IMG/VR virus record: IMGVR_UViG_3300013103_000003
Location: 1-44,895 of that record
Length of the DNA: 44,895 nt
Reading direction: 5' to 3' (one strand)
DNA from: a virus
Positions within the stretch are counted from its first letter, which is position 1, and every line of letters begins with the position of its first letter. The notes beneath the pieces are model-generated. The model was not told the DNA's origin. It ran no database searches and saw only the letters and a program-made list of their open reading frames with translations. A program made the position numbers and the translations under genes. Positions 3,647 through 20,070 of this stretch are shown here, one piece after another.

Positions 3647-3676
3647 ATCCATCTACCTTAGTAAAATGTCACCCTA
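3647..3676 (-). promoter_or_regulatory. Phage-specific promoter element, leftward copy
   Basis: On the complement it reads TAGGGTGACA, then 11 bases, then TAGATGG. This is the same element as the four rightward copies at 3696, 8626, 17442 and 20039, one base shorter in the spacer. It forms an inverted pair with the copy at 3696: TGTCACCCT and AGGGTGACA are perfect 9-base arms. It would drive or control the leftward operon alongside the sigma70-type promoter. Confidence 0.55.
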
Positions 3677-3695
3677 TTGGTGGTTCGTAACAAAC

Positions 3696-3727
3696 CAGGG
3701 TGACAAATTTCTAAAGATAGAAGGGGG
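3696..3727 (+). promoter_or_regulatory. Phage-specific promoter element, rightward copy 1
   Basis: CAGGGTGACA, 12 bases, TAGAAGG, ending six bases before the ATG of the HD phosphohydrolase. The shared CAGGGTGACA and TAGARGG blocks identify it with the copies at 8626, 17442 and 20039. The purine-rich end may also act as the ribosome site. Confidence 0.6.
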
Positions 3728-3733
3728 TAAAAT

Positions 3734-4312
3734 ATGAAAAGTAAACTCAACGAAGGGTGGGTAGAAACGGTGTCGCATCGGAAAATTTACTTTAAAAACC
3801 CTAAAGAAGAAATGTTTAACATTAATGATATTGCTTGGGGTCTCAGTAATATTTGTCGATATGCCGGTCAAGTACCCACTTTTTATAGCGTTGCAACTCA
3901 CAGCGTTTATGTGGCTGAAGAAGTGAGGATATTTTGGCCATCTCAGAGTATAGTTTTACGAGCCTTACTCCATGATGCAGTGGAAGCGTATACTTCAGAT
4001 ATTCCTTCTCCTTTTAAAGAACTTTTCCCTGAAGTTGTTCAAATGGAAAAAACCATCCTTAATGTAATTTATCATAAGTTTAAGTTACAGGATGATGCAG
4101 TAGATGATTACATAGTATCTCAGGCTGATAAAAAGGTCTTATTGGCAGAAAAGCGGTCTCTATTACCAGGTTCTTTTACATGGAATTACCCTTTAAAACC
4201 ATCGGAACAAAAAATCGTGCCAGTATCACCCGAACTATCAAACCATAAATTTCTTTCAGCTTATCATAAAATTAGACAGATGGAATTATCTAAACCCTTA
4301 ATTGAAGGGTGA
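3734..4312 (+). CDS. HD-domain nucleotide phosphohydrolase (DatZ/YfbR-like)
   Basis: 192 residues. The family pattern is clear: INDIAWGLSNICRYAGQ (30-46) with R42, FYSVATHSVYVAEE (50-63) with H56, LLHDAVEAYTSDIPSPFK (78-95) with the H80-D81 metal pair and D89, and a later QADKKVLLAEKR helix. Relatives are the 5'-deoxynucleotidase YfbR and the phage dATP triphosphohydrolase DatZ, which removes dATP in 2-aminoadenine phages. It probably removes phosphates from deoxynucleotides to reshape the pool early in infection. It is the first gene of the rightward early operon, directly after a phage promoter element. Which nucleotide it uses cannot be told by eye. Confidence 0.78.
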   Translation: MKSKLNEGWVETVSHRKIYFKNPKEEMFNINDIAWGLSNICRYAGQVPTFYSVATHSVYVAEEVRIFWPSQSIVLRALLHDAVEAYTSDIPSPFKELFPEVVQMEKTILNVIYHKFKLQDDAVDDYIVSQADKKVLLAEKRSLLPGSFTWNYPLKPSEQKIVPVSPELSNHKFLSAYHKIRQMELSKPLIEG

Positions 4313-4317
4313 TATAA

Positions 4318-4878
4318 ATGATCGTACTTAAAAAATGGAATTATCAATATTCGCTTTTTCCTAAAATGGGTCTTGTTTTGGAAAGAACCACAAAGGGAGA
4401 TAAGATTTTCTCTACCCTTTATCGTACTCATTATCCCAAAAGTAAGGGTATTATAGGGCGACAGATAAATTATTTCATTAAAAAGGATGGTGAATTATTG
4501 GGAATTATCGGGGGGAGTTCTCCTCCACTTCGTTATAGAAAGTTTAGTGCATATTTTGATAGTCAATATACTATGTTAAATTGGCTTAACAATAATGTTT
4601 TTCGTTTAATAGTTCACGAAAAAAACTTAGGTACACAAATCTTAAAATTATTCAGACAACAAATTAAAATAGATTATGAGGAAAAATATGGAGATGAATT
4701 AGTTGGTTTAGTTACTTTTGTAGAACCTCCACGAAATGGTGCTATATATAGGGCAGATAATTGGACATTTTTAGGAATGACACAGGGTAGGACATGTCGC
4801 CGTCCAGGTAAAGAAAAACAGTGGAGTGCGGGTACTCAGAAGTTAATATTCGCAATAAAGTTAAAAAAAGGACGTTGA
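4318..4878 (+). CDS. DruA (DUF4338)/Mom-like protein
   Basis: 186 residues. The C-terminal half resembles DUF4338, the family of the Druantia component DruA: NNVFRLIVHEKNLGTQIL, then KYGDELVGLVTFVEPP, NGAIYRADNWTFLG and TQGRTCRRPG. The YRADNWTFLG strand is close to the YqAtN-(F/W)-xYxG strand of Mom proteins, and a GIIGGSSPP strand fits the GNAT core. DruA-containing defence proteins are usually longer, so this is a minimal, phage-borne form. Its position 5 bases after the HD phosphohydrolase suggests a joint nucleotide/DNA modification role. Function is inferred; neither nuclease nor transferase activity has been shown. Confidence 0.6.
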   Translation: MIVLKKWNYQYSLFPKMGLVLERTTKGDKIFSTLYRTHYPKSKGIIGRQINYFIKKDGELLGIIGGSSPPLRYRKFSAYFDSQYTMLNWLNNNVFRLIVHEKNLGTQILKLFRQQIKIDYEEKYGDELVGLVTFVEPPRNGAIYRADNWTFLGMTQGRTCRRPGKEKQWSAGTQKLIFAIKLKKGR

Positions 4879-4902
4879 CAAATTTTTAAAGGGGTGTATA
4901 TT
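4875..4902 (+). promoter_or_regulatory. Sigma70-type promoter before the primase/replication genes
   Basis: TTGACA (4875-4880), 16 bases, TATATT (4897-4902). It overlaps the stop codon of the preceding gene and lies 35 bases before the next ATG. The same 16-base spacing occurs at the promoters at 3588, 6087 and 19940. Confidence 0.65.
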
Positions 4903-4936
4903 AAAACCAATAAATATTAATGTGAAAGGAAATAAT

Positions 4937-5125
4937 ATGAAATCATGTCTTGATTGCGAACACCATATACAATATTATGATAATTTCAAAATAGTTCATT
5001 GGTGTTCAAAAATTCATGGTATTATCCAAGACCCTGAAGCTCTTTGGGATATTTGTGAATATAAAACACCACTTAAAGAGGCAAAACAGGAATTGCTTCC
5101 ATTTAGAGGGAAAAATGGAAGATAG
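4937..5125 (+). CDS. Small Cys-rich protein
   Basis: 62 residues from the ATG at 4937, which has a GAAAGGA site. A longer reading from a GTG at 4922 would swallow that site and is less likely. CLDC near the N-terminus (C4, C7), H9/H10 and later single cysteines (WC, IC) suggest a small zinc-binding fold. It overlaps the primase-like gene by 11 bases. Function unknown. Confidence 0.65.
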   Translation: MKSCLDCEHHIQYYDNFKIVHWCSKIHGIIQDPEALWDICEYKTPLKEAKQELLPFRGKNGR

Positions 5126-5567
5126 AAATTTGTTACGCAAAACTCTGCTTTCTATAAAGAAAGACCTTCATAAACAGCTTGCCGCTGACCATGTATCAGC
5201 ACCAAAAACTGAATTAGAAAAAAGGTTGCGGGAAATTCATATTAAAGATGGAAAAAAAATGTTAGCTCAAGTTAATAGGAGATTATTAAGTATTAGCCCT
5301 CTTAGTGACCTCTGCACAGTATCTTTTGATGATAAGTTAAAAAGAGCTAAAGAAGTTCCAATAGAACCCTTACTTCCCCATCCCGTAAGACATGAAATGA
5401 CCCGATGTCCTTTCCATGATGATAAACATCCATCAATGAAAGTAAATTCAAATTATGTATATTGTTTCACTTGTAACGAAGGTTGGGATACAATAGCATT
5501 TATACAGAAACTTAAAGGAATGACATTTATAGAAGCAGTTGATTATCTTAATAGGGGGATGTTATGA
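5115..5567 (+). CDS. Primase-type CHC2 zinc-finger protein
   Basis: 150 residues from the ATG at 5115, preceded by AGAGGG. The last ~55 residues are a DnaG-type zinc-binding domain: CPFHDDKHPSMKV, then YCFTCNEGWDTIAFIQ and a FIEAVDYL helix, with the C-H-C-C ligands in place. No Toprim catalytic domain follows, so it cannot be a full primase. It may guide template recognition by the host primase or work with the ATPase encoded at 6378. The first ~95 residues are helical and unassigned. Confidence 0.75.
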   Translation: MEDRNLLRKTLLSIKKDLHKQLAADHVSAPKTELEKRLREIHIKDGKKMLAQVNRRLLSISPLSDLCTVSFDDKLKRAKEVPIEPLLPHPVRHEMTRCPFHDDKHPSMKVNSNYVYCFTCNEGWDTIAFIQKLKGMTFIEAVDYLNRGML

Positions 5568-5776
5568 ATAAGACTAAACCGATAATCAGAATTATGTTTA
5601 GTAAGAAGGCTCTTCAATATAGGACTTTTACGGCATTATGGACATTACTGATGTGTTATGTTTGGACAGGGATATGGCTTGAGAGTATTGAAGTCATGTT
5701 ATCAGTTGTATTAGGAAAGTTTATATTTTATGGTATCCATGAATATACATACAATAATAAGACCCCAAAGGAGTGA
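5564..5776 (+). CDS. Small membrane protein, DUF2061-like
   Basis: 70 residues that overlap the primase-like stop as ATGA. A KKALQYRTFTALWTLLM start, a second hydrophobic segment (IEVMLSVVLGKFIFYGI) and an HEYTY end match the small two-helix DUF2061 membrane family. The role of that family is unknown. Confidence 0.6.
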   Translation: MNKTKPIIRIMFSKKALQYRTFTALWTLLMCYVWTGIWLESIEVMLSVVLGKFIFYGIHEYTYNNKTPKE

Positions 5777-5777
5777 T

Positions 5778-6059
5778 ATGAATAAATATCCTTCTTCCCT
5801 TTTAGCTCTGGTTTTTCTGGTTCTGGTTTTTTCTGGTTCTGGTCTTTCCAGGATCTCTGGTCTTACTGGTCTGGGAAATACGTTCCCATTATGGGGTATT
5901 TTCTTGAATGAGAAAAGAAGAAAATTCAGGAAAATTCGGGACTTACATGGACATTCCCTGAAGAGATGTTTTTCTCAATGTCGTCAAAGTGTCCACAAAG
6001 TGTCCACAAAGTGTCGTCAAAGTGTCTACAAGTGTCTACAAGTGTCCTCTTTTTATTAA
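5778..6059 (+). CDS. Doubtful 93-residue reading frame over repeat region
   Basis: It has a very good ribosome site (AAAGGAGTGAT before the ATG) and a hydrophobic N-terminal segment (LLALVFLVLVF), which could be a membrane anchor. However, 5808-5875 is a low-complexity run of CTGG units, and the last third is encoded by the iteron array at 5979-6049, giving Lys/Cys/Ser-rich protein. It may be a short real peptide running into the origin, or a decayed gene. Confidence 0.35.
   Translation: MNKYPSSLLALVFLVLVFSGSGLSRISGLTGLGNTFPLWGIFLNEKRRKFRKIRDLHGHSLKRCFSQCRQSVHKVSTKCRQSVYKCLQVSSFY
5979..6049 (+). repeat. Iteron array 1 (TGTCNNCAAAG repeats), candidate origin
   Basis: Four 11-base units TGTC(GT/CA)CAAAG at 5979, 5990, 6001 and 6012, then two 10-base units TGTCTACAAG at 6023 and 6033, and a partial unit at 6043. 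The spacing is one helical turn. A very AT-rich stretch (6049-6078) and a sigma70-type promoter follow. Units containing TGTCCACA resemble DnaA boxes. A matching array lies inside the ATPase gene at 6611. It is probably a binding site for the replication initiator. Confidence 0.75.
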
Positions 6060-6086
6060 AAATTAACTTTTTTAAGGAAAAGGGGC

Positions 6087-6114
6087 TTGACAAAGTTAAA
6101 CAAGTGTGTATAAT
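6087..6114 (+). promoter_or_regulatory. Strong sigma70-type promoter for replication genes
   Basis: TTGACA (6087-6092), 16 bases, TATAAT (6109-6114): both boxes match the consensus. It lies between iteron array 1 and the 75-residue gene that leads the ATPase. Transcription through this region could also help open the AT-rich stretch next to the iterons. Confidence 0.8.
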
Positions 6115-6142
6115 AAAGATAAACATTTAACAGGAGAAAATT

Positions 6143-6370
6143 ATGGAACAAACAATTACGATGCGAGTAAATATGACAGATGAACCAAATGAGTATTGTA
6201 TGATGGTAACACCACACCAAGACCCCATAGTTAACAAATCGGTTTTGGCTATCCATGGACTTAACTGTCCCGTCACACTTGACTTAAACATTAAACAAGC
6301 TTTTAACCTAATGGTTGAGTTGAAAAGTGCTTTACGGGAATTTCCATTGGAAGATTATGAAAAAGTATAA
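6143..6370 (+). CDS. Hypothetical protein, 75 residues
   Basis: Preceded by AGGAG and the consensus promoter at 6087. It is acidic, with predicted strands (TMRVNMTDEPNEYCMMV) followed by a helix near the C-terminus (KQAFNLMVELKSALREF). No family is recognised. As leader of the ATPase gene it may be a replication accessory or regulator. Confidence 0.7.
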   Translation: MEQTITMRVNMTDEPNEYCMMVTPHQDPIVNKSVLAIHGLNCPVTLDLNIKQAFNLMVELKSALREFPLEDYEKV

Positions 6371-6377
6371 GGAGAAC

Positions 6378-7421
6378 ATGGAGAAAGGTAAAAACATATT
6401 AAGTCTTATTAAGAGATTAGTAGCCGGGGGTGCGAAAGACTCTCTAATTATAGAGACTGTCAAGAGTTTACGAAGTGAATGGGAGCCGACATTTCCCGCA
6501 GAGGAAATTCCATATCTAATTAAAGAGGTTAAAAAGAAACTCCGTGAGGGGGGTAATGGGAGTCTTGCAGAACAAGTAAGGGATTGGGTTATCAATGAAG
6601 TGCCCATAAATGTCCACTTTCTGTCCACAGATTGTCCACAGATGTCCACAAGTGTCCACAACCGAGTAGACAAGAAAAACCTTTCTATGATTTTCAGTAG
6701 GTTGGTTAAAGAAGGTATTCTGGAACGAGGTAAAAGATATGGCGAATTTAGAAAAATAGATAATAGTCTTAAAAAAATTAAGAAAGGTAATCCACATTCA
6801 TCAGGGGAAGATATTATCCTTCCTTTGGGTTTAGATAAAATGGTAAAACTCTACCCCGGGAATATTGTCGTAGTTGCTGGTGCTCCTAATGCAGGAAAAA
6901 CCGCATTTCTTTTTAATATTGCAGCCGATAATATGGGTGTATGGAAAGTTCATTATTTTAATTCTGAGATGGGTGAAGATGAACTAACAGCCAGATTAGA
7001 GAAATTTGAGGATGTACCGATTGATAATTTTTATGATGAAATTAATATTTATGAAAGGTCGGAAAATTTTGCTGATGTCATTGTCCCGGGGAGAGGTAAT
7101 TTAAATATTGTGGACTTCTTAGAAATACATGAAGAGCATTACTTGGTTGGTAGACAAATCAAAGATATTCACGACAAACTTGACGGGGCGTTATGTTTTA
7201 TTGCAATCCAAAAGAAAAGTGGTCGAGATGAGGGTGTGGGTGGTTTAACGACTTTGGAAAAACCCCGTCTTTACCTTGCAATGAACTCAGGGGTTATTAA
7301 AATCGTAAAGGCAAAAAATTGGCGAGACCCATTAAAAAACCCAAACAGGAAGGAATTACACTTTAAATTGGTAGATGGCTACCGTTTTATTCCAACCGAC
7401 TCGTGGAGCGTATTAGAATAA
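6378..7421 (+). CDS. Replicative RecA/DnaB-fold ATPase with winged-helix domain
   Basis: 347 residues from the ATG at 6378, which follows AAGGAG closely. An ATG at 6357 in the same frame is the alternative. Residues ~1-60 are helical. Residues ~65-125 read as a winged helix (AEQVRDWV to LVKEGILERGKRYGEF). The ATPase core follows: GNIVVVAGAPNAGKTAFLF is Walker A, YFNSEMGEDEL follows it, and ALCFIAIQKKSGRDEG is the region after Walker B. DnaB-like phage helicases have this core. No polymerase is encoded, so it probably loads the host replisome. Five TGTCCAC iterons lie within the winged-helix coding region, as in the lambda O gene, so this is also the likely initiator. Confidence 0.75.
   Translation: MEKGKNILSLIKRLVAGGAKDSLIIETVKSLRSEWEPTFPAEEIPYLIKEVKKKLREGGNGSLAEQVRDWVINEVPINVHFLSTDCPQMSTSVHNRVDKKNLSMIFSRLVKEGILERGKRYGEFRKIDNSLKKIKKGNPHSSGEDIILPLGLDKMVKLYPGNIVVVAGAPNAGKTAFLFNIAADNMGVWKVHYFNSEMGEDELTARLEKFEDVPIDNFYDEINIYERSENFADVIVPGRGNLNIVDFLEIHEEHYLVGRQIKDIHDKLDGALCFIAIQKKSGRDEGVGGLTTLEKPRLYLAMNSGVIKIVKAKNWRDPLKNPNRKELHFKLVDGYRFIPTDSWSVLE
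6611..6660 (+). repeat. Iteron array 2 (TGTCCAC repeats) inside the ATPase gene
   Basis: TGTCCAC occurs at 6611, 6622, 6633, 6643 and 6653, at spacings of 11, 11, 10 and 10 bases; a degenerate TGCCCAT is at 6601. These spacings keep helical phase but not codon phase, so selection is on DNA rather than protein. They repeat the 11-then-10 pattern of array 1, 600 bases upstream. Confidence 0.78.
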
Positions 7422-7430
7422 AGGAGAGAG

Positions 7431-7622
7431 ATGGCTAAAACACCTATATTTCAGAGACATCACATTATTTATAAGGAAGGTAAAAACAAACATGAGGTAA
7501 CTCGGAACATACGGAAAGGTGTACACCAAATCGTTACCTTATTGAGACGGTTCAATCATTTAACAAATGAGGAAATATCTACATTAATTTTGGAAGCTGA
7601 ATTGAAGAGGAAATTTGAATGA
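7431..7622 (+). CDS. Small HNH-like hypothetical protein
   Basis: 63 residues with an AGGAGAG ribosome site. It begins PIFQRHHIIYKEG, which resembles the RHHI motif of small phage HNH-type proteins, followed by basic helices (NIRKGVHQIVTLLRRFNHL). It lacks a full HNH motif, so it is either a DNA-binding relative or degenerate. It overlaps the start of the second Mom-like gene. Confidence 0.6.
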   Translation: MAKTPIFQRHHIIYKEGKNKHEVTRNIRKGVHQIVTLLRRFNHLTNEEISTLILEAELKRKFE

Positions 7623-8212
7623 GCAAGAGCGGGGATATTGTAATGGAAGCATACCCTTTATTCCAAAAGGGGGGTAGCGGTTCGATCCCGACTTCCCCGC
7701 TCCAATTTTATATAAAACAAATTCCAAAATCATTAGCGAAACACGTTTATGCTAAATGGCATTATCTCGGAAAACAAGATTTTGTTGCAACTCACAATTT
7801 TGGAGCATTTTACGGGGGAGAGTGTTTAGGGGCAATTAGTTTCGGGCCTCCTCCGACATGGCAAGTTGTTTTCTCACTTTTTGGACATAAAGATCAAGAG
7901 GGTATTTTTGATATTAAAAGATTAGCAATGAAAGATGAATGTCCTAAAAATTCGGAAAGCAGACTTATAGGGGTAGCTATAAAACTTTTAAGAAAAGAAA
8001 CTTATGTGAAAGCCATAATTACTTTTGCTGATACTGCTCAGGGTCATGTGGGGACTATTTATAAGGCTACGAATTTTAAGTATATGGGTTTAGGCCCACA
8101 GAAATCAGATTTTTTTATAAACGGAAAACAAATGCAAAGAGGGAAATCTAAGGGTAAAGAAGGGGTGTGGGTACCAAGGTCAAGGAAACACAGATTTATT
8201 ATGGAGTTTTAA
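7619..8212 (+). CDS. Mom-like DNA-modification protein, copy 2, with tRNA at its 5' end
   Basis: 197 residues. The Mom pattern is clear: FYIKQIPKSLAKHVYAKWHY, CLGAISFGPPP, IKRLAMKDECPKNSESRLIG, then IITFADTAQGHVGTIYKATN and KYMGLGP. It should transfer a group to DNA bases, as Mu Mom does to adenine. The homologous part begins at about residue 30; copy 1 begins with the equivalent YIKEIPKK almost at its start. The first ~28 codons run through a tRNA-Gly gene (7629-7704). No ATG, GTG or TTG lies between the tRNA and the conserved region, so translation must begin at 7619 or 7643, before or inside the tRNA. Confidence 0.75.
   Translation: MSKSGDIVMEAYPLFQKGGSGSIPTSPLQFYIKQIPKSLAKHVYAKWHYLGKQDFVATHNFGAFYGGECLGAISFGPPPTWQVVFSLFGHKDQEGIFDIKRLAMKDECPKNSESRLIGVAIKLLRKETYVKAIITFADTAQGHVGTIYKATNFKYMGLGPQKSDFFINGKQMQRGKSKGKEGVWVPRSRKHRFIMEF
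7629..7704 (+). tRNA. tRNA-Gly (anticodon UCC), slightly degenerate
   Basis: The acceptor stem GCGGGGA/TCCCCGC is perfect, with T discriminator and encoded CCA. The anticodon stem CCTTT/AAGGG closes loop ATTCCAA, with anticodon TCC at 7662-7664. The T arm has the TTCGATC loop, but its stem pairs only if A7691 is bulged. The D stem is weak, about three pairs. It lies in sense inside the 5' end of the Mom-like reading frame. It could be functional, or a decaying tRNA captured by the coding sequence. Confidence 0.7.
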
Positions 8213-8223
8213 GGGAGGGTATT

Positions 8224-8622
8224 ATGAACAATCTAAAAGACTTATGTAGTAAATGCCCAAAACGAGTCACTTGTACGAAATTGTGTCCGAAAGCTGAGGC
8301 TTATGTAAATCAGGATGTTGTTAAGAAAAACCCTAAAGAAATTTTATTGGGGGATGCTATTAAGGAACAACCTATATCCAGCGGATTGGGTGAGTCACAC
8401 ACGATTTATGGAAAAATGCCAAAGGTTTTACCTGTTGGGGTTTTGACTCTTGTGGACACATACAGCTTAACAGAACGTCAGCGAGAAATTTTTAATTTGT
8501 ATCATAAACAAGGTTTAACGTTACGTCAAATTGGTCTGAAATTAAATATATCTTTTCAAACGGTACATAGACAACTAAGGGCAGCGAAAAAAAAATTAAA
8601 AAAAAGAGCTGAAACGACCTGA
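8224..8622 (+). CDS. Sigma region 4-like transcription regulator with Cys-rich N-terminus
   Basis: 132 residues from the ATG at 8224, after AGGGAGGG. An N-terminal cluster C8, C11, C17, C21 (CSKCPKRVTCTKLC) suggests metal binding. The last ~50 residues are a sigma70 region 4/LuxR-type helix-turn-helix: LTERQREIFNLYHKQGLTLR, then IGLKLNISFQTVHRQLRAAK. There is no region 2, so it cannot be a complete sigma factor. It may recruit host polymerase to the phage promoter element, a copy of which starts three bases after its stop. That link is inferred from position. Confidence 0.7.
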   Translation: MNNLKDLCSKCPKRVTCTKLCPKAEAYVNQDVVKKNPKEILLGDAIKEQPISSGLGESHTIYGKMPKVLPVGVLTLVDTYSLTERQREIFNLYHKQGLTLRQIGLKLNISFQTVHRQLRAAKKKLKKRAETT

Positions 8623-8625
8623 AAA

Positions 8626-8657
8626 CAGGGTGACATTTCTATATAAGTAGAAGGGTG
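8626..8657 (+). promoter_or_regulatory. Phage-specific promoter element, rightward copy 2
   Basis: CAGGGTGACA, TTTCTATATAAG, TAGAAGG. It is followed by an A-rich leader and the endolysin gene, so it should drive the lysis cassette. It is nearly identical to the copy at 20039 over 25 bases. Confidence 0.7.
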
Positions 8658-8691
8658 TAAAAAAAATAATAAGACGGGGGTTTAAAATTAC

Positions 8692-9096
8692 ATGGAAATT
8701 ATGAAAGAAATGATAATGAGACACGAGGGGTTGAGATTGACACCATATCGTTGTTCCGCTGGTAAACTCACGATTGGATATGGGAGAAACTTAGAAGAGG
8801 TGGGTATTTCACAGGAAGAGGCGGAGTATTTACTCACAGATGATATTAAACGTGCTTGGAAAGAAGTTCTTCGTATTTTTCCACATTATTATAGTTTTTC
8901 ACAAAACCGACAAACCGCTCTGATTGATATGATGTATAACCTTGGTGCAACTAAATTTAGAACATTTAAGAAGATGATTGCTGCTATAAAAGTCGATGAT
9001 TGGGAAGAAGCATCACGTCAAGCTGAAGATAGTAAATGGTATCATCAGGTTGGTCAAAGAGGGGTCGAGATTAAAAATATGTTACGAAAGGGGTAA
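8692..9096 (+). CDS. Endolysin: T4-type lysozyme (glycoside hydrolase 24)
   Basis: 134 residues. HEGLRLTPYR with catalytic E12, then CSAGKLTIGYGRN, match the GH24 muramidase active site. NRQTALIDMMYNLG, the F-T-F segment and a C-terminal GQRGVEIKNML finish the fold. There is no signal peptide, so it needs a holin to reach peptidoglycan; a holin-like gene lies at 11542. It is the first gene after a phage promoter element. An ATG at 8701 is an alternative start. Confidence 0.9.
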   Translation: MEIMKEMIMRHEGLRLTPYRCSAGKLTIGYGRNLEEVGISQEEAEYLLTDDIKRAWKEVLRIFPHYYSFSQNRQTALIDMMYNLGATKFRTFKKMIAAIKVDDWEEASRQAEDSKWYHQVGQRGVEIKNMLRKG

Positions 9097-9100
9097 AGAT

Positions 9101-9703
9101 ATGAAAAAGACATTTATCGTTTTAATCGCTATAGTAACTTTTGCTCTTGGCGGCTTAGCACATCAAGTAAGTACTAAACAGACAAAATACACTAATCTGT
9201 CATTCTCTACCAGAATGATTTATGGGGATACTGCGTACTTCACTATTAATGGAGAAATAGGATACGGTAGTTCAGAGAGTTTTGCGAATGATTTAGCGGT
9301 ATATAAACAAAAAGGTATTAAAAAATTAATCATTAGGTTAAATAGTGGGGGGGGGATAATATTTGACGGTTTAGCTTATGCGGATTTGATTATGCAAGCA
9401 AGGAAAACAATGTTTGTGGAAATTAGAGCTACAGGGTTGGTTGCAAGTGCAGCCGTACCCATATTAGTTGCGGCGAATTGGAGAACAGCCACAAAACATA
9501 CGATGTTTATGGTACACAGACCGCAGGCTTATACGGAAGAACAAAGAAAATTGATAGATTTTTTTAATGAAAAATATATTGATGTAGTGGTTTCTGGTTC
9601 TAATTTATCAAAAGAAGAAGTTAACAAAATGATGACAGTCAAAGGTACTTGGTTTGGAGCGAAGAAAGCACTTGAATGGGGACTGATAGATAAAATCTCA
9701 TAA
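9101..9703 (+). CDS. Exported ClpP/SppA-like serine protease
   Basis: 200 residues from the ATG at 9101. Residues 1-20 are a signal peptide or membrane anchor (KK, then FIVLIAIVTFALGGLA). The ClpP-fold core follows: IRLNSGGG (oxyanion strand), TGLVASAAVPILVAAN with probable nucleophile S116, and MFMVHRP with H139. The WFGAKKALEWGLIDKI end is typical of ClpP/SppA proteins. Phage ClpP-like enzymes are usually cytoplasmic prohead proteases next to the capsid genes; this one is exported and sits beside the endolysin, 11 kb from the capsid. A run of nine G at 9347-9355 encodes the oxyanion strand. It may take part in lysis or envelope-protein turnover. Confidence 0.75.
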   Translation: MKKTFIVLIAIVTFALGGLAHQVSTKQTKYTNLSFSTRMIYGDTAYFTINGEIGYGSSESFANDLAVYKQKGIKKLIIRLNSGGGIIFDGLAYADLIMQARKTMFVEIRATGLVASAAVPILVAANWRTATKHTMFMVHRPQAYTEEQRKLIDFFNEKYIDVVVSGSNLSKEEVNKMMTVKGTWFGAKKALEWGLIDKIS

Positions 9704-9714
9704 GAGGGGGAGTT

Positions 9715-10053
9715 ATGAATATATGTTGTCAAAAATATACAGATAAGAGTTTTTGGACTGGTAGCGGACACCACCTAAAACGAATTAGATATAAGTATTG
9801 TCCAGAATGTGGCAGTCGCTTACCCGTGGGGATATTAAAGTGGAGGCGTTATACACCTTTGGGTACGTCTTTAGCTCCATTTGAGGAGAAATGTATTTCG
9901 ACAGAAAGGAATAGAAAAATACTTGATTATTGTAAAAAACGGGGGTGGAGTTTGATAAAGTCGGTTTATGTGGGTGAAGATTGGGATCTCCATTTCTCTA
10001 AAGAAGCTCTCCAAAAAATAATAGAAGCTCAAGTTCTTGGTACTGATTGTTAA
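9715..10053 (+). CDS. Zinc-ribbon hypothetical protein
   Basis: 112 residues with a GAGGGGG ribosome site. CC at residues 4-5 and YCPECGSRLP near residue 30 look like a split zinc ribbon. The rest (residues 45-112) is a basic, probably alpha/beta segment with KILDYCKKRGWSLIKSVYVG. No family is recognised. Confidence 0.65.
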   Translation: MNICCQKYTDKSFWTGSGHHLKRIRYKYCPECGSRLPVGILKWRRYTPLGTSLAPFEEKCISTERNRKILDYCKKRGWSLIKSVYVGEDWDLHFSKEALQKIIEAQVLGTDC

Positions 10054-10072
10054 ATGAATAGAAAGGGGAATT

Positions 10073-11304: not shown

Positions 11305-11340
11305 TATTTCCCCCGCTATTTTTCCGCACAGTTATCTGTG
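11294..11340 (+). terminator. Hairpin pair after the HNH gene, possible weak terminator
   Basis: GGAAAAAATAG (11294-11304) can pair with CTATTTTTCC (11316-11325) with one bulge. It is followed at once by CACAG-TTAT-CTGTG (11327-11340). No clean T run follows. Three CCCTTT-type repeats (11346-11372) lie between the hairpins and the next gene. The structure may slow transcription or protect the mRNA end. Confidence 0.4.
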
Positions 11341-11383
11341 TTCAGACCCCTTTGACCCCTTTAAGACCCTTTTAGGTTAAAAG

Positions 11384-12242: not shown

Positions 12243-12246
12243 TAAT

Positions 12247-13158: not shown

Positions 13159-13409
13159 GAGAAGATTTAATGGAGGACGCAAAAGAAATACATATAACGT
13201 CTATAAGCGAGGCTGAGAGAATTGCACAAGACATTGTGAAAACTACAATGTATGAACGTTATTGGGATGATTTTGAGACGGGTGTTCAGGATTTTACTGA
13301 AGATATAGCAGAGGAGATTGATAAAATCTTAGGTACCATAGTTGATGCCAGAGAAATCACCATTGGGGGCGAGAGAATGATATTACGAAGAATACCACCA
13401 CTGATATAA
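13155..13409 (+). CDS. Acidic hypothetical protein
   Basis: 84 residues overlapping the previous stop as ATGA. It is helical and acidic (ISEAERIAQDIVKTTMYERY, DFTEDIAEEIDKIL) and ends with a basic strand. No family is recognised. It lies between the terminase genes, so a packaging accessory is possible. Confidence 0.65.
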   Translation: MREDLMEDAKEIHITSISEAERIAQDIVKTTMYERYWDDFETGVQDFTEDIAEEIDKILGTIVDAREITIGGERMILRRIPPLI

Positions 13410-13427
13410 GTAAGGGGTTAATGAGTA

Positions 13428-13664
13428 ATGCAGGTACGGTATCGTATTTTACAAAAGGGTAACGATTTTAAAATTCAGGAATTTAACAAAGGACTTCTTA
13501 TGTGGAGATGGCGAGATATTTATAGGAAGTATTATGGTAGTGAAGGTGATGTCTACCATCAAATAGTCATCTTTCATAGTTTGGAAGAAGCACAAAGAGG
13601 AATTGAAGAAATCAAAAAGCAGAGAAATGCTAAAAATACGTATTGGCGTATAGTGGGGCTTTAG
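13428..13664 (+). CDS. Basic hypothetical protein, 78 residues
   Basis: It has an AAGGGG site before the ATG. It begins QVRYRILQKGNDFKIQEF and ends with a helix (SLEEAQRGIEEIKKQR), a beta-beta-alpha layout seen in small phage proteins. No function is recognised. Confidence 0.65.
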   Translation: MQVRYRILQKGNDFKIQEFNKGLLMWRWRDIYRKYYGSEGDVYHQIVIFHSLEEAQRGIEEIKKQRNAKNTYWRIVGL

Positions 13665-13667
13665 GTT

Positions 13668-13823
13668 ATGTTTTATAAATGGGTATTTTGGCAAATAGAC
13701 GAGGTTGGTTGGTTGAATAGGTGGAGTAGAGCTACCGTTGATCTCTATATCCTTGGATATGAAAGACTTGACGATAAGTATTTATATGAATTGTGGACAG
13801 AGGGGTCATGGGAAGGTATTTAA
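13668..13823 (+). CDS. Trp/Tyr-rich hypothetical protein, 51 residues
   Basis: It starts three bases after the previous stop. Six tryptophans in 51 residues (FYKWVFWQIDEVGWLNRW and later LWTEGSWEG) are unusual. No family is recognised. The tight spacing supports it. Confidence 0.5.
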   Translation: MFYKWVFWQIDEVGWLNRWSRATVDLYILGYERLDDKYLYELWTEGSWEGI

Positions 13824-13825
13824 AA

Positions 13826-13966
13826 ATGGAAACATGTCCTATATTTAAATATATGAAATGGACGCAAGAGAAATGTGAGATAGCACAAAAAGACCCCAGT
13901 GTTAAATGTCCTGAGAACTGTCCTAAAAGGGATAAAAATATTCACCAATACTTAACGGGTGATTAA
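13826..13966 (+). CDS. Cys-rich hypothetical protein, 46 residues
   Basis: METCPIFKYMKW begins the protein; C4, C16, C29 and C33 (KCPENCPKR) could bind a metal. An in-frame ATG at 13808 would give 52 residues with a close GAGGGG site and is a real alternative. It ends ten bases before the terL ATG. Confidence 0.5.
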   Translation: METCPIFKYMKWTQEKCEIAQKDPSVKCPENCPKRDKNIHQYLTGD

Positions 13967-13976
13967 GAGAGGTTTG

Positions 13977-15311
13977 ATGCCAGAAAAAGAAATTCATTTA
14001 CCATATAATTTTACCAGACGTAGTTATCAGGAAAGTTTTTGGCAAGGAATGCAGACAAGGAAAAGGGGTTGCTTAGTTTGGCACCGACGTTCGGGAAAAG
14101 ATAAGACTGCATTAAACTTTACCATTAAGGAGGCATTTAAGAGGGTTGGCACATATTTATACTTTCTTCCAAAACAGAGACAGGCACGTAAAGTTATATG
14201 GAGAGGGATAGACGCAGATGGTTTTCGTTTTATGAGTCACATTCCTGAAGAACTCGTTAAACGGCGAAGGGAAGATGAGATGATGATTGAGCTTATTAAT
14301 GGCTCAATTCTTCAGCTTGGTGGTGCGGACAGTTATGATGCTGAAATGGGTAATAATGCAGTGGGGTTGGTTTTTTCAGAGTATTCATTACAAGACCCGG
14401 CTGCTTGGGATTTTTTCCGTCCCATTGTAAGAGAAAACAAGGGTTGGGCTTTATTTCTTTTCACTCCCAGAGGGGAAAATCATGGATTTGAACTATACGA
14501 AATGGCAAAGAGTTTGCCTGATACATGGTACACAACCCTATTGACAGTTGCTGATACTAAACGATTGAATGGCACTCCTGTAATTACTGAAGCTGATATA
14601 GAGGAAGAACGCAGGGAGGGTATGGATGAGGCCATGATACAACAGGAATATTACTGTTCCTTCCTTGGTAATGTTCAGGGTGCATATTACGCTAAATTAT
14701 TGACAAAAGCTACACATGAAGGTCGAATATGTGGGGTACCATATGACCCAACTACGGGTGTTATAACATCTTGGGATATTGGAATTGGAGACAGTTGTGC
14801 AATTTGGTTTTTACAAATAGTGGGTCAAGAGTTACATTGGATTAATTATTATGAAAACCACGGTGAAGGTATAGAATTTTATATTAACTTACTTAACGAG
14901 TATAAACAGAAGTATGGGTATATCTATCTTGACCATTTAGCCCCCCATGATATAGAAGCTAATGAATTTAGTAGTGGAACCAGTCCATGGGAAATTGCGA
15001 AGAATTTAGGTTATGAATTTACCACCGTTAAAAGAACCCCTAATGTAAATATTGGTATTCAGAATGTGAGGGCATTATTGCCCAGAAGTTGGTTTGATAA
15101 AGAAAAATGTGCTCGTGGGGTTCAATGTTTACGGAATTATCATCAAGTTTATGATGAAAAAAGACATGCATTCCATGATAAACCAGAACACGACTGGTCA
15201 TCGCATGGTGCTGATGCTATGCGTACTTATGGAGAAGGCAAAGACTTGATTGTGGGCGGTGGTATGACGGCCGCTGATGCAGAAAGGTTGGAAAGAGAGT
15301 ATGGGAGATAA
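13977..15311 (+). CDS. terL: Terminase large subunit
   Basis: 444 residues from the ATG at 13977, which has AGAGAGG in front. A longer reading from a GTG at 13959 would overlap the preceding gene. HRRSGKDKT (36-44) is Walker A, VGLVFSEYS (129-137) is Walker B with its catalytic Glu, and TSWDIGIGDSCAIWF near 262 starts the RNase H-like nuclease domain. DHLAPHD and HGADAMR carry later acidic residues. The length is normal for the family. It powers DNA translocation and cuts the concatemer. Confidence 0.93.
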   Translation: MPEKEIHLPYNFTRRSYQESFWQGMQTRKRGCLVWHRRSGKDKTALNFTIKEAFKRVGTYLYFLPKQRQARKVIWRGIDADGFRFMSHIPEELVKRRREDEMMIELINGSILQLGGADSYDAEMGNNAVGLVFSEYSLQDPAAWDFFRPIVRENKGWALFLFTPRGENHGFELYEMAKSLPDTWYTTLLTVADTKRLNGTPVITEADIEEERREGMDEAMIQQEYYCSFLGNVQGAYYAKLLTKATHEGRICGVPYDPTTGVITSWDIGIGDSCAIWFLQIVGQELHWINYYENHGEGIEFYINLLNEYKQKYGYIYLDHLAPHDIEANEFSSGTSPWEIAKNLGYEFTTVKRTPNVNIGIQNVRALLPRSWFDKEKCARGVQCLRNYHQVYDEKRHAFHDKPEHDWSSHGADAMRTYGEGKDLIVGGGMTAADAERLEREYGR

Positions 15312-15495
15312 AGTAAAAACAATTTATAGTTTAGATGAGTTTGAAATTAAGCATAATGAAATTATTCAGAATACCGTGGAAGTTACCGTGGAAGTCAGCG
15401 GGGAAGTCACTATAAAGAAATCATCCGCTTCGATTAAGAAATGGATTGGGTTTGAGAAGGTTGGTAAAGGTACATTTAAAAAGATAAGAGATTAA
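15301..15495 (+). CDS. Hypothetical protein between terminase and portal, 64 residues
   Basis: It starts at the ATG at 15301, overlapping terL by 11 bases, with GAAAGAGAG upstream. The middle has a Val/Glu strand repeat (VEVTVEVSGEVTI) encoded by three nearly identical 12-base units (15376-15411). It ends with a basic helix. No family is recognised. Confidence 0.6.
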   Translation: MGDKVKTIYSLDEFEIKHNEIIQNTVEVTVEVSGEVTIKKSSASIKKWIGFEKVGKGTFKKIRD

Positions 15496-15498
15496 GAC

Positions 15499-17433
15499 AT
15501 GAATTATAAAAACAAAAAAGATGATTGGGATAAAGCATATACTGAGGCAGCAGCTTATTGGTCACATTTTTTAGAAGAAGCCAAATTGGACTTGCGGGCA
15601 CACATGGGAGATCCATGGAAAGCAAAAGATGTAGTGTATTTAAAAAGACAAGGACGTGACCCGAACGTATTTAATAAAATCCAAAGAGTGAATAGACTAA
15701 TTTCTGGTTTCCAAAGAAAAAACAGATTAGCAATGAAAGTGAACCCGGCGGAGGGTAGCGATGAGAAAACAGCAAGTCAAATGTCTGGGGTAATATTACA
15801 CATTATGGGTGGTTTTCCAAATGGATACCATGTGATGAGTGAAGCATTTGAGGGTGGCACACTAAAGACGGGAATAAATCTTGTTAATATATATATAGAT
15901 ACATCCACCGATATGATTGATGGGGATATAAGGTTAAAACGTATACCATATAATAAATTTTTACTATCTCCTTATTTTACCGAACGTGACCTCTCTGATT
16001 GTGGTTATCTATTGCGAAGAGAATATTTAACTCAAAATGAAGTGAAAATGCTTTTACCTATGAAGATGGGGGAGATAGAGAAATTAGCGGGTTGTACTGA
16101 TAATAAATTCCCTTATTTTGCACCACCAAAAACTGGTAGTCGAGGTAATATGCTATCTTATGATGAGTTTTGGGAATTAGATTATAAGAAAACTCAGCAG
16201 ATAGTAGACCCAGATAGTGGAGCGGTGTCCGAGTGGAAGGGTACATCAACACAGCTTGAAGAAGTACGTAAAGAATTTCCGAAGGCAAAAATTGTCCCTA
16301 TGATGAAACGTACAGTACGTTTGACTATATTGGTGAATGGTGAAGTCTTTTGGTCAGGGGAAGATCCGAATGGCATAGGGGAATATCCATATGTGCCGAT
16401 TATGGGTTTTTGGAACCCAGAGTATAATGAAGCCAAATTCAAATTACAATCCCTTACGAGGTGTATGCGTGACCCCCAAGACGACTTCAATAAAAGGCGT
16501 TCACAGGTAAAGGATATAATTGAGTCACAAATCTCAAGTGGATGGAAAGCTGAGGAGGGTTCGGTAGTTAATCCAAAAGCTCTTTTTCAGTCTGGACAAA
16601 ATAAAGTAGTTTGGGCTAAGAAGGGACAATTAGATAAGATACAGGAACTTGAGATAAGTGATATACCGCCTGGTCTTTTTCAGATAATGGAGATTTTGGA
16701 TAAAGATATTGTAGAAATTCCAGGAGCCACTGATGAATTGTTGGGTACACCAGAAAATGTAAAAACTCCAATAGCGGGAGTATTGGGTAAATTACGACAA
16801 GCTGCTGGGTTAACAGGACTTCAGGATATATTTGATAATTATCGCTTGGCTAAGACAATTGTAGGTAATAAGATAATTAAGATGATCCAAGCTAATTATA
16901 GTCCAGAAAAGATAAAACGTATTCTTAATGAAGAACCCACCCCTGAGTTTTATAGTAAGGACTTTGGAAAATATGACTGCACAGTACAAGAGGGTGTTTT
17001 AACAGACTCACAGAGACAGATGTATTATGCCGAACTTGTCAATCTGAAAGACATGGGTGCACCTATACCATGGGCTGCTATTTTAGAAGCAGCACCATTA
17101 CAACATAAGGATAAACTATTGGATTACATGAAACAAGCTGAACAGGGTGCAGCAGAGGAAGCTAAATTCGATAAATTGATGGAGCGTTTAACAGCAGCAT
17201 TGATGCAATCTGAAACCATGGCAAATATTGAAGGTGCACGAGCTAAAACGGCACAAGCTATGGAAGATAAAGCAAGTGCAGTATTAGATAGAATTAAAGC
17301 TATGCGAGAGATAGGACAGATGGATGATAAGAATTTCATGGAGATACTAAAGCTAATTTTAGAAATAGAGAAAATGGGAAGTCAACCGACACCCACACCT
17401 GCGGCTACGCAACCAAAGGTGACGGGGCGATAA
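15499..17433 (+). CDS. Portal protein, P22 type
   Basis: 644 residues. The family's N-terminal pattern is clear: NKIQRVNRLISGFQRKNRLA, KTGINLVNIYIDT, DGDIRLKRIPYNKFLLSPYF, ERDLSDCGYLLRREYL, then the long wing and stem regions (DPQDDFNKRRSQVKDIIESQ). The C-terminal ~100 residues are Ala/Glu/Met-rich helix, as in the P22 barrel. Twelve copies form the ring through which DNA enters and leaves the head. It supports a podovirus-type virion and headful packaging. Confidence 0.9.
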   Translation: MNYKNKKDDWDKAYTEAAAYWSHFLEEAKLDLRAHMGDPWKAKDVVYLKRQGRDPNVFNKIQRVNRLISGFQRKNRLAMKVNPAEGSDEKTASQMSGVILHIMGGFPNGYHVMSEAFEGGTLKTGINLVNIYIDTSTDMIDGDIRLKRIPYNKFLLSPYFTERDLSDCGYLLRREYLTQNEVKMLLPMKMGEIEKLAGCTDNKFPYFAPPKTGSRGNMLSYDEFWELDYKKTQQIVDPDSGAVSEWKGTSTQLEEVRKEFPKAKIVPMMKRTVRLTILVNGEVFWSGEDPNGIGEYPYVPIMGFWNPEYNEAKFKLQSLTRCMRDPQDDFNKRRSQVKDIIESQISSGWKAEEGSVVNPKALFQSGQNKVVWAKKGQLDKIQELEISDIPPGLFQIMEILDKDIVEIPGATDELLGTPENVKTPIAGVLGKLRQAAGLTGLQDIFDNYRLAKTIVGNKIIKMIQANYSPEKIKRILNEEPTPEFYSKDFGKYDCTVQEGVLTDSQRQMYYAELVNLKDMGAPIPWAAILEAAPLQHKDKLLDYMKQAEQGAAEEAKFDKLMERLTAALMQSETMANIEGARAKTAQAMEDKASAVLDRIKAMREIGQMDDKNFMEILKLILEIEKMGSQPTPTPAATQPKVTGR

Positions 17434-17441
17434 GGGTATTA

Positions 17442-17472
17442 CAGGGTGACATTTCACTATAGGTAGAGGGAG
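17442..17472 (+). promoter_or_regulatory. Phage-specific promoter element, rightward copy 3
   Basis: CAGGGTGACA, TTTCACTATAGG, TAGAGGG, ending six bases before the ATG of the 143-residue gene. It restarts transcription for the tRNA and RNA ligase region. Its CACTATAGG core also resembles a single-subunit polymerase promoter (see findings). Confidence 0.65.
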
Positions 17473-17478
17473 TATTTA

Positions 17479-17910
17479 ATGGAACAATCTAAAACAGAAC
17501 AGGATAGACAAATTGCGGAAGAGATAAAAACGTTTGAGGCGTTCAGACAAGATACGGAAAGAATATCAGAATTGAATATAGGCGATGCCCGAAGATTGTT
17601 AGCTATAGACCTCCGACATAACATTGAAAAGATAATCAATAAGAGACAAAAGAAGGCTAATTACCATATCTTGGTATTTGCTGAACACACCCCGCAGGGG
17701 GTAACCACTAAGTTACTTATCCTCCCGGGGACAACACCTATACCAAAGATGCTTGGTACTATCCTATATTATGTTGATAATAGAGGGGGTAGACTAATAA
17801 AGAAATGGGTATTACCGTTAGATTTACCCAGGACAGACCAATACGTTTCTTTTGAAGAAGGTGTAAAGGAAATAGCTGATGCTGCAAAGGGTCAACTTAT
17901 TGTTTATTAA
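17479..17910 (+). CDS. Hypothetical protein preceding the tRNA cluster
   Basis: 143 residues. Residues 1-60 are a charged helix (QDRQIAEEIKTFEAFRQDTE); residues 60-143 alternate strands and loops (NYHILVFAEHTPQGVTTKLL, GTILYYVDNRG, KKWVLPLDLP). No family is recognised. It has its own phage promoter element and is followed by four tRNA genes, so it may be needed at high level. Confidence 0.7.
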   Translation: MEQSKTEQDRQIAEEIKTFEAFRQDTERISELNIGDARRLLAIDLRHNIEKIINKRQKKANYHILVFAEHTPQGVTTKLLILPGTTPIPKMLGTILYYVDNRGGRLIKKWVLPLDLPRTDQYVSFEEGVKEIADAAKGQLIVY

Positions 17911-17943
17911 GGGGAGATTATCAATAAGAACTGTTATATAATA

Positions 17944-18018
17944 CTGAAGGTAGTTCAGTCTGGTTAGAGTGCCTGGCTTGGAATCAGGATGTCGGTGGTT
18001 CAAATCCATCCCTTCAGA
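17944..18018 (+). tRNA. tRNA-Pro (anticodon UGG)
   Basis: Acceptor CTGAAGG/CCTTCAG; anticodon stem CCTGG/TCAGG around loop CTTGGAA, giving anticodon TGG; T loop TTCAAAT. The CCA end is not encoded and must be added by a host enzyme. It overlaps no gene. First of four tandem tRNAs. Confidence 0.92.
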
Positions 18019-18033
18019 CTTATTTAGATTTAC

Positions 18034-18105
18034 GCTTCCATAGCTTAACAGGTAAAGCAGTGGTCTTGTAAACCACCGTTCGGGGTTCGAGTCCTCGTGG
18101 AAGCT
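18034..18105 (+). tRNA. tRNA-Thr (anticodon UGU)
   Basis: Acceptor GCTTCCA/TGGAAGC, discriminator T; anticodon stem GTGGT/ACCAC around CTTGTAA, giving anticodon TGT; T loop TTCGAGT. CCA is not encoded. Confidence 0.93.
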
Positions 18106-18111
18106 CCAAAT

Positions 18112-18186
18112 GGCAGAGTAGCTAATAGGGAAAGCGCTCGGCTGTTAACCGAATGAATGGGGGTTCGACTCCCCCCTCTGTCGCCA
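18112..18186 (+). tRNA. tRNA-Asn (anticodon GUU)
   Basis: Acceptor GGCAGAG/CTCTGTC with one G-U pair, discriminator G and encoded CCA; anticodon stem TCGG/CCGA around CTGTTAA, giving anticodon GTT; strong T stem GGGGG/CCCCC around TTCGACT. Confidence 0.92.
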
Positions 18187-18190
18187 AATA

Positions 18191-18266
18191 GGGCGGATAG
18201 CATAATTGGGAATGCACCTGTTTTGCAAGCAGGAAATTGGGGGTTCAAATCCCCCTCTGTCCACCA
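18191..18266 (+). tRNA. tRNA-Ala (anticodon UGC)
   Basis: Acceptor GGGCGGA/TCTGTCC with two G-U pairs, discriminator A and encoded CCA; anticodon stem CCTGT/GCAGG around TTTGCAA, giving anticodon TGC; T stem GGGGG/CCCCC around TTCAAAT. Only four bases separate it from tRNA-Asn. Confidence 0.9.
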
Positions 18267-18282
18267 ATGTAAGGAGTGATGA

Positions 18283-18486
18283 ATGTTAAAGGAAGGTACA
18301 CAAATAACATGTTCTAATTGTGGACATGTCATAGGGATATGTAATAAGGATATGCCAAGTACAACATATGTCAAGGACACTGTGAAATTTTTTGATGAAA
18401 ACTTTCCGATGATGCCATATATGATTTGCCCACGTTGTGGTGCATATATAGACCTCATTGAAAAGATAAAAGATAAAATGGTTTAA
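18283..18486 (+). CDS. Small zinc-ribbon protein
   Basis: 67 residues. ITCSNCGHVIG and MICPRCGAYI form a two-knuckle zinc ribbon with ~35 residues between. It lies 16 bases after the tRNA cluster and 12 bases before the RNA ligase, so an RNA-related role is possible. No specific family. Confidence 0.7.
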   Translation: MLKEGTQITCSNCGHVIGICNKDMPSTTYVKDTVKFFDENFPMMPYMICPRCGAYIDLIEKIKDKMV

Positions 18487-18498
18487 GGAGAGAGAGAT

Positions 18499-19128
18499 AT
18501 GGAATATCCAAAAATTCAAAGTCTTTTTAAGAGAGATCCTAAAGGGAAATTTATTATAGATGACTGGTCTTTACCAGAGTTTGAGTATCTGAAATTCAAT
18601 AGATGGGAATGGACAGAAAAAATAGATGGTATGAATATACGGGTAATCTGGGATGGTAAAAATGTTGTATTTCGAGGGAGAACAGACAGAGCACAACTAC
18701 CTGACGACCTTGTAGACCACCTTACAAAGACATTTACTATAAATAAAATGATACATGCTTTTGGTTTTAATTATGCAACCCCAGATGTGAAGATTTATCT
18801 TTTTGGTGAAGGTTTTGGGGCTGGAATACAGAAGGGTGGAAAATACGGGGCAGACAAACGATTTATCTTGTTCGATGTTTTGGTTGGACGTTGGTGGCTT
18901 AAAAGGGATGCTTTAGAAGATTGTGCTCATGTTTTTGGAATACCCATTGTCCCGGTTGTGGGTTATGGTACTATTGGCATGGCTATAGGTACGATAGAAA
19001 ATGGTCTAAAATCAATCTTTGGGGATTTTCAAGCAGAGGGGTTAGTTTTAAAGCCTGCAATAGAACTCCACGCAAGAAACGGTAATCGGATAATAACTAA
19101 AGTAAAACATAAAGATTTTATATTTTAG
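18499..19128 (+). CDS. RNA ligase (nucleotidyltransferase, Rnl2-like)
   Basis: 209 residues with all adenylylation motifs: I, TEKIDGMNIRV with nucleophile K41; a following FRGRTDRA; III, YLFGEGFGAG (~100-109); IIIa, FILFDVLVGRW; IV, AEGLVLKP; V, ITKVKHKDF at the end. The length equals a bare nucleotidyltransferase domain without a C-terminal extension. It would seal nicked RNA. Because four tRNAs lie just upstream, repair of tRNAs cut by host anticodon nucleases is the obvious role, as for T4 RNA ligase 1. No kinase/phosphatase partner is adjacent. Confidence 0.88.
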   Translation: MEYPKIQSLFKRDPKGKFIIDDWSLPEFEYLKFNRWEWTEKIDGMNIRVIWDGKNVVFRGRTDRAQLPDDLVDHLTKTFTINKMIHAFGFNYATPDVKIYLFGEGFGAGIQKGGKYGADKRFILFDVLVGRWWLKRDALEDCAHVFGIPIVPVVGYGTIGMAIGTIENGLKSIFGDFQAEGLVLKPAIELHARNGNRIITKVKHKDFIF

Positions 19129-19143
19129 GGAAGGGAGATAATT

Positions 19144-19365
19144 ATGACTTGTAATAGAGACCAAGAAGAGATTGAGAGGTGGACTACATTACAGGGAGGA
19201 CTCCATGTTAGGTCATGCTTATCTAATCTGAAACCTCAAAAGGTGTTTGATTATCAAACCCTTCAAACCGAGTTACTTCGGGAGTGTTTGAAAAACAGTT
19301 CCCAACCAGCCACTTTTATGAGTGACAAAAGGGTAAGAAAATTTAATAGATGGTCAAGTATTTAA
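19144..19365 (+). CDS. Hypothetical protein, 73 residues
   Basis: It has a good GGGAGAT ribosome site. It is charged and probably helical (NRDQEEIERWTTLQGGL, LQTELLRECL). No family is recognised; it is tightly packed after the RNA ligase. Confidence 0.6.
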   Translation: MTCNRDQEEIERWTTLQGGLHVRSCLSNLKPQKVFDYQTLQTELLRECLKNSSQPATFMSDKRVRKFNRWSSI

Positions 19366-19379
19366 AGGAGGTGATTGAA

Positions 19380-19574
19380 ATGCCTAAAGGGTTTGAAGTA
19401 TGTCAACGTAATGGGGGGCGAATTAGAACAGTCTCTGGCCCAGACAAACAGTTTGGTTTGGGTGAGGGTGAATATATGCCGGTCTGTTATCTAAATGGTG
19501 AAGCCCACCTTGGTGAAATACACAAGAAAAAGGAAGAAAAGCACCCAAAGGAAACAATAAAGAGGGTGAGATAA
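19380..19574 (+). CDS. Hypothetical protein, 64 residues
   Basis: It starts at the ATG at 19380, which follows AAGGAGGTGA, an almost perfect Shine-Dalgarno sequence and the best in the window. PKGFEVCQRNGGRIRTVSG begins a small beta-rich protein of a type common in phages; EYMPVCYLNG follows, and the tail is Lys-rich. Such a strong site predicts high expression. A terminator follows. Confidence 0.7.
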   Translation: MPKGFEVCQRNGGRIRTVSGPDKQFGLGEGEYMPVCYLNGEAHLGEIHKKKEEKHPKETIKRVR

Positions 19575-19619
19575 TTATTTGAATGTTCTCTACCAGTGGT
19601 AGAAAACCTAAAAAGGCTT

Positions 19620-19654
19620 CCGCTGAGCCAGTTTGGTAAATCAGCGGTTTTTTT
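19620..19654 (+). terminator. Rho-independent terminator
   Basis: CCGCTGA (19620-19626) and TCAGCGG (19641-19647) form a 7-base stem, followed by seven T. It ends the rightward tRNA/ligase transcript, just before a leftward gene. Confidence 0.85.
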
Positions 19655-19693
19655 GTATCTATCCTTCCCCATGGGTGCTTTTTATTTATCGGT

Positions 19694-19909
19694 TTAGTCA
19701 TAGATGTTTAACATATAAACATCTCTTACTCTACCATCGGGTTGTCCAAAAGCTACATACTTACGTAGTTGGTTCTTTAAGATGGATGATTTTACAATAT
19801 ATCCATCTTCTCGTAACATCTTAGCTCTCTCGTTTTTTCGTTTTTTAGCCTCTTCTTTCCCTCCTTTATATTCCAAAGGGTCAAAAGACTCTTGACCTAC
19901 AAATCCCAT
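19694..19909 (-). CDS. Isolated leftward gene, basic hypothetical protein
   Basis: 71 residues with AAAGGAGG in front. The middle is a Lys/Glu-rich helix (KGGKEEAKKRKNERAKMLRE), followed by DGYIVKSSILKNQLRKYVAF. It has a complete sigma70-type promoter (19940-19967) and lies between a rightward terminator and a phage promoter element, so it is an independent unit. It reads like a moron gene or an early host-interaction gene. No family is recognised. Confidence 0.75.
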   Translation of the reverse strand: MGFVGQESFDPLEYKGGKEEAKKRKNERAKMLREDGYIVKSSILKNQLRKYVAFGQPDGRVRDVYMLNIYD

Positions 19910-19939
19910 AATTGCCTCCTTTCTTTAATTGTTATTCTA

Positions 19940-19967
19940 AATATAACACACATTTTATACTTGTCAA
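19940..19967 (-). promoter_or_regulatory. Sigma70-type promoter of the isolated leftward gene
   Basis: On the complement TTGACA (19967-19962), 16 bases, TATATT (19945-19940), with the start ~25 bases before the ATG. It shares the 16-base spacing of the other three sigma70-type sites. Confidence 0.75.
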
Positions 19968-20038
19968 CCCCCTCTGAAATAAAAAAATGCATTTTTTTTC
20001 ACTTTTTTTCACTTTTTTTTGAGAAATCAGCTTAAAAC

Positions 20039-20070
20039 CAGGGTGACATTTCTATATAAGTAGAGAGATA
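20039..20070 (+). promoter_or_regulatory. Phage-specific promoter element, rightward copy 4 (capsid operon)
   Basis: CAGGGTGACA, TTTCTATATAAG, TAGAGAG. It lies 145 bases before the scaffold gene and is the only promoter visible for the ~24 kb virion operon. The preceding stretch 19981-20020 is T-rich with repeated TTTTTTCAC units. Confidence 0.7.

Follow-up and report, generated by a model that had tools for sequence, protein, structure and literature searches.

The viral DNA analysed here (the window, that is, the whole stretch of 44,895 nucleotides) carries six copies of a two-block element, in which a recognition block is followed by a TAGARGG-type block. This CAGGGTGACA element precedes the lysis/packaging, tRNA and capsid genes, and it also lies back to back between two early operons. 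On the plus strand, copy 2 (3696..3724) stands before an HD phosphatase gene and the rightward early operon, copy 3 (8626..8654) before the endolysin, protease, terminase and portal genes, copy 4 (17442..17470) in a 45-bp gap after the portal gene, and copy 5 (20039..20067) before the capsid operon. On the minus strand, copy 1 (3647..3676) heads the leftward early operon and copy 6 (3099..3128) is located at a gene junction within it. An earlier note on this DNA had listed five copies at operon starts; those five and their placement were confirmed, and the sixth, which lies inside the leftward operon, had been missed. Copy 4 had been assigned to a tRNA block. Four tRNAs do follow it, together with an RNA ligase gene, but the block opens with an unknown ORF (17479-17910); an Rfam scan returned nothing but the four tRNAs. 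All six copies point with the genes downstream, and five of them are wholly noncoding in a genome of which about 6% is noncoding DNA.

The four rightward copies (3696, 8626, 17442 and 20039) have a spacer of exactly 12 bases, as had been described, with 0, 0, 0 and 1 mismatches to the full pattern, respectively. In dinucleotide shuffles 0.19 such copies were expected, and four copies were obtained in 0 of 100 shuffles. The TAGARGG block, given previously for every copy, is present in copies 2-4, while the second block of the capsid copy is TAGAGAG. For the leftward copy (3676->3647) the position and the 11-base spacer were correct; its first base is T for C and its second block is TAGATGG, not TAGARGG. 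The additional copy 6, on the minus strand (3128->3099), reads TAGGGTGACA-N13-TAGAGGG and scored 28.1 in a variable-spacer scan, the best among 60 shuffles being 24.8. A scan of the genome with a motif model, as the earlier note had advised, separated the copies well from other sites: the rightward copies scored 37.6-45.1 bits with a position-specific model against 9.8 bits for the next best site, and when the model was built without one of the rightward copies, that copy still scored 24-40 bits, the best other site reaching 11-12.5 bits. Over the six copies the spacers are 11, 12, 12, 12, 12 and 13 bases, which corresponds to AGGGT-16(+/-1)-TAGA or, counted from GACA, to 12 +/- 1; the spacers of the rightward copies follow the consensus WWTYWM-TAWARR. 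Furthermore, all six AGGGTGACA words of the genome have TAGA 11-13 bases downstream and lie within element copies, as expected of a phage-specific signal. Copy 6 spans the point at which one small leftward gene stops and the next one starts, and it may serve in addition as a ribosome-binding site; the explanation that it is a mere chance ribosome-binding site was dropped, since TAGAGGG stands at 13 bases. The two-part element is a real, repeated signal, placed and oriented with the genes.

In addition to the element, a comparison of the noncoding DNA with itself brought out a TTGACA-N16-TATNWT family of four sites, against 0.1 in shuffles, and one of them has 12 of 12 consensus bases. They are TTGACA-N16-TATGTT at 3588..3615 (minus), TTGACA-N16-TATATT at 4875..4902 (plus), TTGACA-N16-TATAAT at 6087..6114 (plus) and TTGACA-N16-TATATT at 19940..19967 (minus), and they precede the leftward operon, the primase block, the helicase block and one lone minus-strand ORF. 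These predicted sites look like ordinary host-type promoters. Since four canonical sigma70-type promoters are present, the CAGGGTGACA element would constitute a second promoter class, and such a two-class arrangement would be that of a phage whose early promoters are read by the host and whose later ones depend on a factor. The element itself was also considered as a sigma70 promoter with GTGACA as the -35 box. This was rejected, as GATAAT or GATATT follows at 17-18 bases in copies 1 and 5, and copies 2-4 are without it.

With no consistent sigma70-type promoter alongside the copies, it is rather improbable that the element is something other than a promoter, namely an operator or a loading site for an antitermination factor. 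A strong terminator-like hairpin with a U7 tract (20084..20124, plus strand), which closely follows copy 5 and precedes the capsid genes, is reminiscent of promoter-loaded antitermination. However, no such hairpin was seen close behind the other copies, the element lacks symmetry, and a phage repressor was not recognised.

The earlier note had compared the element with promoters of single-subunit polymerases, for which rigid spacing between recognition block and core is a criterion; in the SP6 promoter, GGTGACA and the TATA-like core are contiguous. The words GGTGACA and, in copy 4, CACTATAGG are common to the element and the SP6/T7-type promoters, as is a purine-rich stretch. Here, in contrast, six extra bases separate GACA from the core and the spacer varies (11/12/13), which argues against promoters of this kind, and no polymerase was found. 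A six-frame PF00940 search gave no hit in the window (T7 control, 1e-109), and PHROG and Pfam scans of the window proteins gave none either, which bears out the earlier statement that no single-subunit polymerase is visible in the genome; the same note had overlooked the sigma-like gene described below and the four ordinary promoters. Bases 1-123 recur without a mismatch at 44773-44895 as a direct terminal repeat. The contig, whose record is handled as linear, is therefore probably a complete genome of 44,772 bp in circular assembly, and the missing polymerase gene is meaningful. As hidden polymerases, proteins of 618 and 727 residues were rejected, being read as repetitive spike-like proteins, and a 2438-residue protein was rejected for its RadC domain; the DxDGD motif was absent from the large unannotated proteins examined for this purpose. 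The suggestion of a T7-like polymerase in the host or a prophage found no support among 192 genomes sampled from the class in which related Desulfatibacillum prophages occur, a sample without a positive control and a class that may not be the host's. The runs TAGAAGGGGG (copy 2) and TAGAGGGAG (copy 4) end six bases before ATG and resemble ribosome-binding sites. If the two genes have no other transcripts, the start would have to lie at TAGA or upstream of it. Initiation there would retain both sites in the mRNA and to that extent suits a polymerase of the T7/SP6 type supplied by a prophage or helper. Overall, we regard reading of the element by such a polymerase as very improbable. The spacer is as flexible as in bipartite promoters of multisubunit polymerase, and this was counted for a retargeted host polymerase.

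A candidate reader of the element is encoded at 8224..8622 on the plus strand, in a gene that closes the early operon and ends three bases before copy 3. The listed ORF starts at 8167, and the ATG at 8224 is preceded by GGGAGGG. The C-terminus of the protein is a sigma-70 region 4 (PF04545, 3.4e-10; TIGR02937 above cut-off; PHROGs match), and the matches to sigma models cover only residues about 100-149 of the ORF. In the AlphaFold model region 4 alone is confident, and no further confident domain is seen. The modelled region 4 resembles isolated -35-binding domains such as sigmaE region 4 on DNA (2h27), with an rmsd of 1.5-1.6; the Foldseek E-values for these fold matches are weak, 0.02 at best. 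The N-terminus carries C-x2-C-x5-C-x3-C followed by KAEAYVNQD. Sigma region 2 was recognised neither by sequence models nor in the AlphaFold model of this protein, which may have a divergent region 2. A split sigma factor with region 2 on another gene was rejected, as the small proteins scanned gave no region-2 match. To our knowledge, a Cys4 module with region 4 alone is an unusual type of factor.

Apart from this protein, nothing sigma-like was recognised in the genome. Together with the separate sigma70-type class, the region-4 gene beside the lysis copy supports two earlier proposals, that a phage factor may redirect the host polymerase and that the element is a dedicated phage promoter class. 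Many early proteins lack a family match, so that one of them may instead be the activator with which the host polymerase reads the copies, the region-4 protein acting elsewhere. The position of the region-4 gene next to a copy, in a genome with no other recognised sigma-like protein, makes such an activator unlikely. The element might also be read by an alternative sigma factor of the host, with no need for a phage factor. In length, a bipartite element with AGGGT-16-TAGA is compatible with promoters of the ECF type. On the other hand, the element pattern had no match in 291 genomes from the class with the related prophages (which may not be the host's class), and none of the six AGGGTGACA words lies outside the element; we consider reading by a host sigma factor quite unlikely.

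Two known phage systems are close to the arrangement described here. The late promoters of phage 7-11, GTAAtg-(16)-aCTA, are read by the phage sigma factor SaPh711_gp47, which has region 4 (PMC8948821). Common to both phages are a bipartite element with 16-base spacing and several copies before late genes, a phage sigma-like protein with region 4, and separate host sigma70 early promoters. The sequences differ, however, and in the present phage, known from sequence alone, the copies with near-constant spacing also precede early operons, and the factor has a Cys4 N-terminus and no recognisable region 2. In the middle promoters of T4, the MotA box is 12 +/- 1 bases from the -10, and the host polymerase is redirected through sigma appropriation by MotA/AsiA (PMC2988021). 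The 12 +/- 1 spacing to a downstream element and the pairing of a phage factor with host polymerase are shared, whereas MotA promoters retain an excellent sigma70 -10 and the element has TAGARG without the final T. Moreover, the candidate factor is sigma-region-4-like, and the MotA and AsiA families had no match among the window proteins scanned.

We propose that the element is a phage middle/late promoter at which host RNA polymerase is retargeted by the 8224-8622 region-4 protein, a reading that the sequence features make probable. We infer the binding by this protein, the initiation at the element, its timing and the exact start. Infection would begin from the four host sigma70-type promoters, one of which would be read through the helicase genes into the 8224-8622 gene; no terminators were found between the 6087 promoter and this gene, or between copy 2 and this gene. 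The product would bind the AGGGT(GACA) block, replacing the usual -35 contact, and the docked host RNA polymerase would start near TAGARGG, 12 +/- 1 bases past GACA (16 +/- 1 from AGGGT). In this manner the element would activate the operons for lysis/packaging, tRNAs and capsid, while copies 1, 2 and 6 would boost both early operons and the gene of the factor itself, copy 2 providing feedback on the latter. The proposed mechanism has weak points. As a sigma70 -10, TAGARG is poor, and no part of the factor can be recognised that would read a -10. The runs resembling ribosome-binding sites at copies 2 and 4, which favour a start no further downstream than TAGA, also speak against it. No related genome was found to combine a relative of the factor with a variant of the element and so to link the two.

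The hairpin 3' of copy 5 also bears on the proposed retargeting of host polymerase, because transcripts from the capsid copy must pass 20084-20124. The predicted folding of the 99-nt capsid leader is far better than that of shuffled sequences (z -5.4). Either the polymerase starting at copy 5 would be resistant to termination, or the hairpin would regulate the leader. The module C-x2-C-x5-C-x3-C-KAExYVxxD with an HTH-like C-terminus was also found in small proteins of other phage contigs, directly upstream of a portal-like gene (L146:551-874 and L155:1698-1955) or of apparent packaging genes (L154:2812-3114). These proteins are a possible family of phage transcription switches. It is tentatively suggested, as a possible though doubtful extension, that a Cys4 module with an isolated region 4 and no region 2 could alone retarget host polymerase to a new bipartite class, possibly with antitermination at the capsid hairpin, and that this property could be shared by the protein family found before portal-like and packaging genes.

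That a phage sigma-like factor can retarget the host polymerase is already known; the element itself is not found in the sequences searched. In IMG/VR, a loose 14-base pattern matched at least 116 stretches, with one match each among the matches listed, as chance would give, and the fuller element pattern had no match elsewhere. In the sequence records of relatives identified by their capsid, portal or factor proteins, there were two-mismatch matches only, about as many as with a reversed control pattern. The Bacillus podophage Page (NC_022764) encodes a putative sigma factor as well; its sigma gene was unmatched by phmmer with the 8224-8622 factor, and its noncoding DNA has no such repeated element. 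None of the repeated noncoding elements of Page, API480, L124, L119 and the prophage relatives resembles the CAGGGTGACA element. The major head protein makes the phage a distant relative of Page (34%), of contigs L123/L124 (59%) and of regions in two bacterial genera; in named genomes the nearest capsid relatives are in Desulfatibacillum (57-58%) and Pseudodesulfovibrio (56%), by which the host is not fixed.

The present analysis offers a pairing of promoter and factor that can be tested from sequence in a phage for which no close relative was found. Small Cys4/region-4 proteins near packaging genes may likewise be transcription switches of uncultured phages. If the factor can do without region 2, it would redirect host RNA polymerase by a more compact means than a complete phage sigma or MotA/AsiA; if it is a full but divergent sigma, it would be a further example of the strategy of phage 7-11.

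Some further features of the genome were observed. The proteins scanned include a primase zinc-finger and DnaB-like pieces but no recognised DNA polymerase. Iteron-like tandem repeats of 11 bases around TGTCCACAAAG (5976-6047 and 6608-6657) lie in the replication-gene region; phage Page has an 11-base tandem array within its DnaD-like gene. The Mom-like DNA modification family gave two clear matches and one weak match at 1892-2698 (minus), 4318-4878 and 7619-8212, the weak one being 4318-4878, which is also above the Pfam DruA cut-off. Finally, a protein of the virion region (33335-34645) has a weak ATP-grasp/GARS match and 53% identity to the protein in the same place in L124.
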